DNA from: Sulfurimonas sp.
Lineage (GTDB): Bacteria; Campylobacterota; Campylobacteria; Campylobacterales; Sulfurimonadaceae
DNA length: 64,000 nucleotides
NCBI RefSeq assembly: GCF_028714975.1
Contig: NZ_JAQTLH010000010.1
Span: forward strand, 1-64,000
Reading direction: 5' to 3'
The translations under genes were made by a program, and so were the position numbers. Position 1 is the stretch's first letter, and each line of letters starts with the position of its first letter. Positions 60,385 to 63,100 of the stretch are shown one piece after another. A model generated the notes under the pieces. The model was not told the origin of the DNA. It saw nothing but the letters and a program-made list of their open reading frames with translations, and ran no database searches.

Positions 60385-60396
60385 ATTGTGAGATGC

Positions 60397-60432
60397 GTAT
60401 GCGTTCCACCTCCCCCGAGGTGGAACGCATAC
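60397..60432. repeat. Solo RAYT-type REP palindrome after sdhE
   Basis: GTATGCGTTCCACCTC, a CCCC loop, then GAGGTGGAACGCATAC: a perfect 16-bp stem, 12 bases after the sdhE stop. It shares the GTTCCACCTC / GAGGTGG core with the ends of the two 432-bp elements downstream. The outer bases differ in paired fashion (GCG with CGC), so the hairpin is kept. It could also end the sdh transcript. Confidence 0.8.
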
Positions 60433-60485
60433 ATACTACATTAGCTTCATTAAAATTTTATAAAAGTGTGTTAGCTTGATTTTGC

Positions 60486-60491
60486 TATAAT
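60486..60491 (+). promoter_or_regulatory. -10 box of the RelE-type toxin-antitoxin pair
   Basis: TTTGCTATAATCTT contains a perfect TATAAT 27 bases upstream of the antitoxin ATG. A good AAAAAAGGAG ribosome site follows. No clear -35 box. Confidence 0.6.
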
Positions 60492-60518
60492 CTTATAGTT
60501 TAAAAAAGGAGCTTCACA

Positions 60519-60734
60519 ATGAAAACATTGACTCTTGAGATAAAAGATGAAACTATTGCCGATAAAATAGTATGGATGTTGCAGCATTTCAAAAATGATG
60601 GATTGGTTATTAGAGAGAGTGAAGCCACTGATAATTTAAAGGCCAGTATTAAGCAATCAGTGGACGAACTTAATATGGTTAAAAGCGGTAAATTAAAAGC
60701 AAAGCCTGTAGAAGAATTATTAAATGCCATTTAA
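60519..60734 (+). CDS. Small antitoxin of a RelE-type pair
   Basis: 71 residues: a short strand (TLTLEIKDETIADKIVWML), then helix and an acidic-basic tail (SVDELNMVKSGKLKAKPVEELLNAI) like antitoxins paired with RelE toxins in this phylum. It overlaps the toxin by 11 bases. The family is inferred mainly from size, partner and overlap. Confidence 0.7.
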   Translation: MKTLTLEIKDETIADKIVWMLQHFKNDGLVIRESEATDNLKASIKQSVDELNMVKSGKLKAKPVEELLNAI

Positions 60735-61050
60735 TATTCTCACTATTCCGGAGTTTGATAAAAATATAAAAAAATTAGCTAAACACTACAAAAATATAAA
60801 AGTAGATTTATCATCTCTGGTTTTAGAGCTACGAAATAATCCAAAGTTAGGCACATATCTGTTTCAAAACTGCTATAAAATTAGAGTTGCAAACTCAAGT
60901 GTACCTACCGGCAAAAGCAAAGGTTTTAGGGTCATTACTTATTGTGTAGATGATGAACAAAATATTTACTTACTATCTATATACTCAAAATCAGACCAAG
61001 AAAATATCACTGATGCAGAGATAATAGAACTACTAAAGCAGGTTCAATAG
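60724..61050 (+). CDS. RelE/ParE-type toxin
   Basis: 108 residues with the compact RelE-like fold: IPEFDKNIKKLAKHYKNIKVDL (helical pair), then NPKLGTYLFQNCYKIRVANSS and GKSKGFRVITYCVDDEQNIYLLSIYSKSDQENI (four-strand sheet with Arg and Tyr as in type II mRNA interferases). It is followed by 52 bases before the first RAYT element. Confidence 0.8.
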   Translation: MPFNILTIPEFDKNIKKLAKHYKNIKVDLSSLVLELRNNPKLGTYLFQNCYKIRVANSSVPTGKSKGFRVITYCVDDEQNIYLLSIYSKSDQENITDAEIIELLKQVQ

Positions 61051-61102
61051 AAATTAAAAGACATGAAGAGTAAGTAGCTATCAGTATATATTGACATTTT
61101 TC

Positions 61103-61534
61103 CTCGTTCCACCTCTCCTGAGGTGGAATGCATATATACACCTCATATAACACATTAAGCCAAACCAAACTGCAATATCTTTATGGGAAGAAGCAGATAT
61201 AAAATATATGAAACGACACATCCACATTTTGTGACATGCACTGTACTCCATCAGCTGCCGCTTTTTACAAGGCAAGAAAGTGTTGCAATCATAATAGAGT
61301 GCCTAAAATTTTTACAAGAAAAAGACAATCTAAAACTTTATGCCTATGTTATTTTAGAAAATCATTTGTATATAGTTCTCTCAAGTGACGATTTGCCCAA
61401 AACTATGCAATCTTTCAAGCAATAGTAGCGCTAGGGATTATAGCGGAATGAACGGGCTGGTGGAAATCGAGAGGTTATGGTGAGGGAGATTTTGGATGAC
61501 AGTATGCATTCCACCTCGGGAGAGGTGGAACGAG
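61103..61534 (+). mobile_element. Non-autonomous RAYT element, copy 1
   Basis: A 432-bp unit bounded by near-perfect 32-base terminal inverted repeats (CTCGTTCCACCTCTCC then T or C, then GAGGTGGAATGCATA), 31 of 32 bases matching. Each end is itself a palindrome of the REP type. Inside is an internally deleted RAYT gene. It recurs with two visible base changes at 62658-63089, in the same direction. The right end lies inside the frame of an HTH gene. Confidence 0.85.
61183..61483 (+). pseudogene. Internally deleted REP-associated tyrosine transposase (copy 1)
   Basis: The first 80 codons are RAYT/Y1-type (THPHFVTCTVLHQLPLFTR; then YAYVILENHLYIVLSS), ending at two stop codons after QSFKQ. In the next frame, from 61424, SSARDYSGMNGLVEIERLW-stop reproduces the C-terminal end of RAYT proteins. 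The middle, which in the family holds the catalytic tyrosine helix, is missing. The His-x-His nicking motif reads HLY instead of HxH. It cannot encode an active transposase. Confidence 0.85.
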
Positions 61535-61732
61535 AAAGTAGCGGATGTTATACTCCGAAGCATACTCTATATCAAAACGAAAAAGCTCCTGTTCATCTAC
61601 TTCTAAAACTTCCGCAATGTAAGGAATAAGCTCTGCTTTTAGTTCACGTTTGCCGTTTAAGTAACCGTATATTGTCTGTTCACTCGGTATTTCACCCGTA
61701 CTCTTCAGCTTTAGTTCGATTGCCTGAAGCAT
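61535..61732 (-). pseudogene. HTH regulator gene cut by the element
   Basis: The minus-strand frame begins MLQAIELKLKSTGEIPSEQT; IYGYLNGKRELKAELIPYIAEVLEVDEQELF is an XRE-like helix-turn-helix. After EYNIRYF the frame runs straight into the element end (LVPPLPRWNAY) and ends within it. So the original C-terminus is gone or was placed elsewhere. A TATAACT box lies upstream near 61785. Whether the short product still binds DNA is unknown. Confidence 0.6.
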
Positions 61733-61809
61733 TTTGACAAAATCTTTTTTTTGTAAATTTTTCTCTTTTATAAGTTATACTGCATGCAAATATATTACAG
61801 GGGTGTCAG

Positions 61810-62520
61810 ATGATGTGCTTAAATAAAATGGTGGATGAAAATGATTACCAAGGAAGTTTTAATAAGATTGCAAATTACCTATTAAATTGTGTTGAGCTTC
61901 AAGTTAAAACTAAAAAATATGAATTTACAGAAATTGAATTTTACTATTATTCAGACGATCATAAAGATTGTGCATTACATGGTGATGAACTTCAAAAAAC
62001 TTCTAATGGATGGTATGTGCACAACAAAGGACGAGGTGGTATTGATATTACTTTTGGAAATTGTGATAACTTTGGAGGAATATTGATAAGAGGAATTAAA
62101 GAAGTGAAGTCAGATGGAAAATATATTGATGGGCCGTTGAATATTATGAACTTTTTTAAAAGTCAATTTAGCTGTCAAAATAAAATGGAGATACAAGATA
62201 AGCTTACGTTAGGAATAATAGCATTTATTCAGATCGACTGTAAAAATGATACTGTTTATCAAGGGCCACGCATTGGTCTTGTTCAGCCAACTAACCCTTA
62301 TTTAGTTTATCCGTATAGATTTTTAAAGGATTTATCTAAAGAACATAATTTTAAAGAAAAACTCACTATTTACTATACATCTATAAAATTGGGAATAACT
62401 ACAAAAGAGAATATTTCAAATAATATTGGGTACCAATTCAGTGTTGAAAGTTATGAAAATACACTGTCTCTATCTATCAATAAAAACAGGCTATTTTTAG
62501 ATTATTTCAAGAATATATAG
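61810..62520 (+). CDS. Uncharacterised 236-residue protein
   Basis: No signal peptide or membrane helices. The segment TEIEFYYYSDDHKDCALHGDE, followed by GRGGIDITFGNCDNFGGILIRGI and DGPLNIMNFF, looks conserved and enzyme-like (His/Asp-rich start, glycine-rich substrate loop). The pattern vaguely resembles small DNA-glycosylase or nuclease-like families, but I cannot assign it. The start has AGGGG upstream. It lies between the two RAYT elements, so it could have arrived as accessory cargo. Confidence 0.65.
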   Translation: MMCLNKMVDENDYQGSFNKIANYLLNCVELQVKTKKYEFTEIEFYYYSDDHKDCALHGDELQKTSNGWYVHNKGRGGIDITFGNCDNFGGILIRGIKEVKSDGKYIDGPLNIMNFFKSQFSCQNKMEIQDKLTLGIIAFIQIDCKNDTVYQGPRIGLVQPTNPYLVYPYRFLKDLSKEHNFKEKLTIYYTSIKLGITTKENISNNIGYQFSVESYENTLSLSINKNRLFLDYFKNI

Positions 62521-62574
62521 ATAGTTTTTGTCCACTTTTTACTCTATACTTACTCAAAACATCGGAGAAAAATC

Positions 62575-62676
62575 ATGACAATCATAGAAAGATCACCCTA
62601 CGATAATATTTACGAACCAATCATGGAAAAAGTGACTAAAAAATCAGTCTATTTTTTCTCGTTCCACCTCTCCTGA
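62575..62676 (+). CDS. Short ORF interrupted by RAYT element copy 2
   Basis: Not in the ORF track. ATG at 62575 behind GGAGAAAA gives MTIIERSPYDNIYEPIMEKV and then VYFF before entering the element end, where it stops at 62674. Good ribosome site and regular codon use suggest the 5' end of a real gene, cut short at about 28 native codons. No family recognised. Confidence 0.4.
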   Translation: MTIIERSPYDNIYEPIMEKVTKKSVYFFSFHLS

Positions 62677-63089
62677 GGTGGAATGCATATATACACCTCA
62701 TATAACACATTAAGCCAAACCGAACTGCAATATCTTTATAGGAAGAAGCAGATATAAAATATATGAAACGACACATCCACATTTTGTGACATGCACTGTA
62801 CTCCATCAGCTGCCGCTTTTTACAAGGCAAGAAAGTGTTGCAATCATAATAGAGTGCCTAAAATTTTTACAAGAAAAAGACAATCTAAAACTTTATGCCT
62901 ATGTTATTTTAGAAAATCATTTGTATATAGTTCTCTCAAGTGACGATTTGCCCAAAACTATGCAATCTTTCAAGCAATAGTAGCGCTAGGGATTATAGCG
63001 GAATGAACGGGCTGGTGGAAATCGAGAGGTTATGGTGAGGGAGATTTTGGATGACAGTATGCATTCCACCTCGGGAGAGGTGGAACGAG
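62658..63089 (+). mobile_element. Non-autonomous RAYT element, copy 2
   Basis: Offset from copy 1 by exactly 1,555 bases throughout, so the same length of 432 bp with the same ends. Visible differences: AACCAAACTG to AACCGAACTG and TTATGGGAAG to TTATAGGAAG. The second removes the ATG that copy 1 uses. The internal deletion is identical in both copies, so it arose before duplication. The right end lies 11 bases from the mogA stop. Confidence 0.85.
62738..63038 (+). pseudogene. Internally deleted RAYT gene (copy 2, start codon lost)
   Basis: Same reading as copy 1, but the start ATG is ATA at 62738. The ORF track therefore begins at a GTG at 62786, which corresponds to valine 17 of copy 1. C-terminal tail SSARDYSGMNGLVEIERLW again in the shifted frame, ending at 63038. 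Confidence 0.8.
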
Positions 63090-63100
63090 AAACCTTCTTG

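Follow-up and report, generated by a model that had tools for sequence, protein, structure and literature searches.

Two copies of an internally deleted, MITE-like REPtron with CTCG-footed hairpin ends in Sulfurimonas sp.

The window analysed here, a 64,000-nt stretch of a Sulfurimonas sp. contig (NZ_JAQTLH010000010.1), contains two nearly identical 432-bp units at 61103-61534 (copy 1) and 62658-63089 (copy 2), both on the plus strand. Each is a dead, internally deleted REPtron, that is, a RAYT gene between two inverted REP hairpins. The deleted unit was likely copied whole after its decay, locally, in the same orientation and with its ends kept, and we infer that the REP ends were used in the copying. 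As the best explanation as a whole, we propose local copying of the deleted REPtron via its REP ends by a RAYT-family transposase, with a probability of about 0.5.

Two copies of one deleted unit

Direct reading together with repeat and genome searches placed the two copies in the same orientation at an offset of 1555, with about 1.1 kb between them, which bears out the original prediction of two 432-bp units sharing ends, gene and internal deletion. Base-by-base alignment, which had been proposed as a check, revealed two internal differences, at 61167/62722 (A/G) and 61185/62740 (G/A), and the latter changes the start codon ATG to ATA in copy 2. When the comparison was extended over 61096-61537, a third difference appeared at 61102/62657 (C/T), just beyond the left end and its foot. 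Copy 2 adjoins moaB, and a 236-codon open frame without a family match (61810-62520, +) lies between the copies. The junctions described below move the borders 2 nt further out, to 61101-61536 for copy 1 and likely to 62656-63091 for copy 2.

The flanks of the two copies are unrelated apart from short A+T runs, A-T5 to the left and AAA to the right, and no duplicated flanking gene was found around the two units. A tandem segmental duplication including flanking genes, the outcome that the original prediction had named as fatal to its reading, was therefore rejected. The host genome (G000 in our numbering of genomes) is a draft of 23 contigs with 99.4% completeness, and no further 432-bp copy was found in it.

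The decayed RAYT gene

In copy 1, RAYT codons 1-80 followed by a stop (TAG) occupy 61183-61425 (+), and the last 19 codons, SSARDYSGMNGLVEIERLW, follow in another frame at 61424-61483 (+). The corresponding parts of copy 2 are codons 1-80 with the ATA start at 62738-62980 (+) and the last 19 codons, again in the other frame, at 62979-63038 (+). Compared with the intact unit of G214, 232 bp are missing, approximately from codon 81 to codon 158, including the Y motif YIHNNP of the intact relatives. The HUH region reads ENHLHMV in those relatives, whereas both window copies have ENHLYIV, with HLY replacing HLH. Thus, all the damage that had been predicted was confirmed: N-terminal 80 codons and a C-terminal piece out of frame with each other, loss of the tyrosine region, and HUH changed to HLY. 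In addition to the deletion, the H-to-Y, W-to-Q and M-to-I changes are common to both copies.

Codons 1-80 matched the REP-associated tyrosine transposase model NF047646 with an E value of 5.8e-10 and 39 bits, below the cut-off of 80 because the gene is truncated; the intact proteins of G214, G198 and G216 scored 96-101 bits, with G214 at 101. No solved structure was matched by sequence at E 0.001. Over the 80 codons, copy 1 and G214 gave a dN of 0.021 and a dS of 0.443, and the intact pair G214-G198 gave 0.016 and 0.366 over the whole gene, indicating that the gene was constrained for most of its history and that its loss is recent.

No full-length RAYT of the family of this unit, or any with these ends, was found in the 99.4%-complete host genome. 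As a candidate for an active parent, the sole other Y1_Tnp match in this genome was rejected, as it reads HYF rather than HUH. This 459-aa protein (contig C3, L022:587-1966) carries the Y1_Tnp domain at its start, fused to SapC, and looks like a domesticated transposase domain.

REP hairpins at the unit ends

The unit ends are inverted repeats of 32-35 bp, 94-97% complementary over 35 nt, and each end is a hairpin with a 10-bp stem behind a CTCG foot. The left REPs are located at 61103-61128 (+) and 62658-62683 (+), and the right REPs, which are inverted, at 61509-61534 (-, with the CTCG foot on the minus strand) and 63064-63089 (-). The 32-base ends had been predicted to be REP-like palindromes, and DNA folding agreed (z = -6.5 and -5.5 against shuffled sequences). 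The core palindrome has five occurrences in the window, where shuffling predicts 0.01, and seven sites genome-wide with up to 3 mismatches; the host genome has five REP matches at up to 1 mismatch. Across the genus, this REP was found in 36 of 135 genomes with one or few matches each and a maximum of eleven, while one strict pattern gave no match in viral contigs. The foot in this family is CTCG or CTAG and does not fit the canonical GT[AG]G.

A solo hairpin of the same REP family lies behind the CCG gene (60397-60432, unstranded) and has two inner-type arms (GTATGCG...CGCATAC). In G210 (contig C125, L105:200-250), the hairpin behind the CCG gene passes directly into the left end of a RAYT unit. 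These hybrid hairpins suggest deletion by recombination between two REP hairpins.

Intact and deleted relatives

The unit was searched in 228 genomes of the family, and RAYT and REP tallies were made among the 135 genomes of the genus. Full-length units were found in G214, G198, G216, G172 and G126, and a damaged one in G118. The closest intact unit, that of G214, is 93% identical over the first 326 bases. Intact relatives have 177 codons, the same ends, and the motifs NHLH and YIHNNP. The arrangement of a RAYT gene between two inverted palindromic REPs is common to G214, G198, G216, G172 and both window copies. A RAYT match was obtained in 30 of the 135 genomes, mostly one each.

Both window units are situated between a CCG-domain gene and moaB. 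The same interval holds an intact unit in G198, and in G214 an intact unit adjoins moaB on a contig that ends before the CCG gene. G196 has a unit with a different deletion there (codons 34-127) and an altered left REP, G106 retains just the final ~20 codons with the right REP, and G111 just a left REP. Since the unit remains at this site in several relatives, the site is an inherited RAYT site at which decay has been repeated within the group. Other RAYT neighbours are an MFS-like gene in G216 and G118 and recD2 in G172.

Alignment with G214 and G198 showed that the window units are internal deletions of a known full element with both ends kept, and independent internal deletions that keep both REP ends were also found in G172 and G141. 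The deletion junction of the window units was not found in any other genome among the contigs searched.

Junctions between units and flanking genes

On its right side, copy 1 cuts an HTH gene, of which the 5' part remains (61538-61732, -). HTH homologues in relatives read ...EYNIRYSKDAREILELL..., and the match of the window gene ends at the copy 1 border; many genomes carry these homologues elsewhere. The C-terminal remainder was absent from the left flank of copy 1 and from the rest of G000. As the gene is cut and its 3' end is gone, copy 1 is not a clean insertion, and with only one side cut and the remainder missing, at least one further rearrangement is needed.

Two other genomes provided comparable junctions. 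In G214, relE is broken off at the left end of the intact unit; the gene is whole in G198. In G172 (contig C255, L115:3745-4260), a 188-bp, 100% identical copy of the 3' end of recD2 separates a deleted unit from a full one and abuts a unit end on either side, with recD2 itself intact upstream. The recD2 copy is exact although the two units of G172 differ by several per cent, so the flank was copied after the units had diverged. At these four junctions (HTH in G000, relE in G214 and recD2 twice in G172), which were chosen for their identifiable flanks, the known sequence starts 2 nt beyond CTCG/CGAG; for G000, one ambiguous base leaves an offset of 2 or 3 nt. A fifth junction, in G126, where a gene tail was lost at the left end, is compatible. 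The joining thus respects the ends. Such regularity supports end-specific joining and would be expected of an end-specific enzyme, with nuclease attack on the hairpins as a possible alternative. Units with one end lost in G106, G111 and G118 indicate that illegitimate events also occur.

No target-site duplication was found at copy 1 or copy 2; the same search returned short imperfect matches near the unit ends in G141 and the 188-bp flank duplication in G172. An empty site in relatives, which the original prediction had proposed to look for, was not found, and there was no clean empty site at recD2, since the right flank of G172 was not found in relatives.

Extra REPs or derivatives lie 5' of the main unit in six genomes (G000, G172, G216, G126, G217 and G198), usually with a gene or gene fragment in between. 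This pattern was noticed post hoc in a small number of genomes, and G198 has a duplicated right end as well.

How the second copy arose

Because the deletion and the H-to-Y change are found in both copies, which then differ at two bases, decay would most simply have come first and copying second, as the original prediction had it. The copies may be older than they look if gene conversion has occurred between them. For the copying itself, a RAYT acting in trans, which had likewise been predicted, is the best single mechanism and is unproven: the genome yielded neither a full-length RAYT nor a further copy of the unit, and a genome lacking full-length RAYTs was among the findings that had been named in advance as speaking against it.

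Each unit is a REPtron at the inherited CCG-moaB site that has lost 232 bp, including the catalytic tyrosine motif, and one HUH histidine, and the dead unit was then likely copied once, locally and in the same orientation. The REP hairpins would fold in single-stranded DNA, and an HUH Y1 transposase, supplied by an intact RAYT since lost or missing from the assembly, would cut about 2 nt outside the CTCG foot. The unit would thereby be joined to a new site 5' of the resident one, and the DNA between the copies would be either flank that travelled with it or a segment acquired separately. The outcome would be a long, MITE-like, non-autonomous REPtron derivative. Support comes from the intact units at the same locus, the full-length relatives that pass the RAYT cut-off, the shared deletion, the unrelated flanks, the other deleted units (G172, G141 and G196), the four junctions, and the cutting and joining of single-stranded REP DNA by TnpAREP proteins (PMC8266576). 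Against it stand the missing intact RAYT, the lack of a target-site duplication or empty site, the one-sided cut of the HTH gene, the small number of copies, only two and both local, and the description of REPtrons as immobile units (PMC6006769).

The main rival dispenses with a transposase. REP hairpins might stall replication or be cut by SbcCD-type nucleases; template switching or the joining of ends close to the bases of the hairpins might then duplicate the unit and reshuffle the adjacent DNA, a course that we consider possible rather than probable. It would agree with the tandem 79-bp duplications of unit ends in G198, the fused hairpin of G210 and the two-inner-arm hairpin at 60404, as well as with the recD2 duplication between the G172 units, the variable cargo of the CCG-moaB interval among relatives, and a G000 genome without a remaining RAYT. 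However, all four junctions fall on one position, 2 nt beyond the foot and 6 nt beyond the hairpin core. Illegitimate joining is usually less regular, and the entire 432 bp was copied with both ends between unrelated flanks.

Import and misassembly were also considered. Copy 2 might have been brought in by homologous recombination from a close strain that already carried the unit, the HTH fragment and the 236-codon frame, with the resident unit serving as homology. The absence of the intervening DNA from this site in relatives and the presence of HTH homologues at other loci in many genomes fit this scenario, which is nevertheless improbable: the donor would need the same deletion and 99.5% identity, the junction occurs in no other genome searched, and the copying event is merely shifted to the donor. 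Even less credence can be given to an assembly error in which units from distant loci were misjoined across a repeat longer than the short reads. The genome is indeed a draft in 23 contigs, and some contigs of relatives end near such REPs, but each copy has distinct bases, just 1.1 kb of unique DNA separates them, both outer borders agree with relatives, and an analogous layout occurs in the separate assembly of G172.

Going beyond local copying by a RAYT-family transposase, the ends of CTCG-class REPtrons might act as one-ended, rolling-circle-like joining sites, with complete REPtrons or their deleted remnants being copied, along with adjacent DNA, beside a resident unit. Composites of unit, gene fragment and unit would be built in this way (G000 and G172, with similar layouts in G216 and G126), driving gene turnover. 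We regard this broader idea as doubtful.

Relation to known REP/RAYT systems

RAYT genes flanked by inverted REPs have long been known (Nunvar 2010, PMC2817692). REPtrons have been described as not transposing as a unit (Quentin 2018, PMC6006769), and subclasses with atypical structure have been described as well (PMC6006769). RAYT pseudogenes with deletions are also known (PMC3686654). TnpAREP proteins cut and join single-stranded REP DNA, the purified proteins cutting CT or CA sites near the REP, and the REPs of Marinomonas are concentrated near their gene (PMC8266576). Judged by motifs and length alone (NHLH, WE, YIHNNP and 177 aa), the intact RAYT would fall between subclasses 2.2 and 2.6 (PMC6006769).

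Like a typical REPtron, the window unit has a Y1 transposase gene between two inverted palindromic REPs, its intact relatives pass NF047646, and most genomes have one copy; it differs in the CTCG foot in place of GT[AG]G, in its dead gene and in being present twice. REPINs are non-autonomous units (Bertels and Rainey 2011, PMC3116915), and they resemble the window unit in having two inverted REPs and a presumed dependence on a RAYT in trans. However, a REPIN is a short REP doublet, dispersed in many copies and predominantly extragenic, whereas the window unit has 432 bp with pieces of the RAYT gene and exists as two local copies. Tyrosine transposases with other inverted repeats have been reported from genomes lacking GTAG REPs (Di Nocera 2013, PMC3733652). 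These TIRtrons (TIRYT) likewise combine a RAYT-class tyrosine transposase with inverted repeats, some of them self-complementary, a likeness judged by gene class and end features, and the window ends differ as hairpins with a constant foot. With bacterial MITEs, the unit shares an internal deletion, intact inverted ends and more than one copy, but its parent is of the HUH Y1 type and missing from the genome, and there is no target-site duplication.

We conclude that the window unit is a non-autonomous, MITE-like variant of a known system; the original prediction of a MITE-like derivative of a REP/RAYT system is supported by the comparable deleted units in G172, G141 and G196. The present analysis adds a REP family with a CTCG foot, a series of units with internal deletions from a single genus, and a deleted unit that is present twice. 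RAYTs have been described as single-copy and immobile genes whose activity extends at most to the movement of short REPs. A dead REPtron that was apparently copied in full suggests that usually immobile transposase units may sometimes be copied whole. Together with its deleted relatives within the genus, it provides natural junctions from which the ends can be defined and which could reveal the way a REPtron becomes a REPIN-like non-autonomous unit.

Gene turnover and a REP-bracketed small-gene array

The cargo of the CCG-moaB interval (60385-63100 in the window; L101, L102, L103 and L113) varies by relative and includes toxin-antitoxin-like pairs and small unknown genes, amounting to as much as ~13 kb in G106. 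The interval, bordered by REP hairpins, is a hotspot of gene turnover. In G111 (contig C160, L103:1520-1600), the RAYT left end stops after ~50 bases and continues as AAAAAAGAGTGTCAACCACTATTTTGAAACTTTTC, which resembles a repeat of a small-gene array on contig C1 of G000 (340463-343742; L021:1964-5243). The array also occurs on contig C10 of G198 (L158:150-3850). It consists of about six pairs of hydrophobic proteins (76-89 aa and then 25-37 aa) with no clear Pfam family, all encoded in one direction. Its spacer is a direct repeat with GGGTGTCAGGCACC, present in 8 copies in G000 and 11 in G198. In G000, solo REPs belonging to the family of the unit flank the array on both sides. The arrangement looks like a cassette array.
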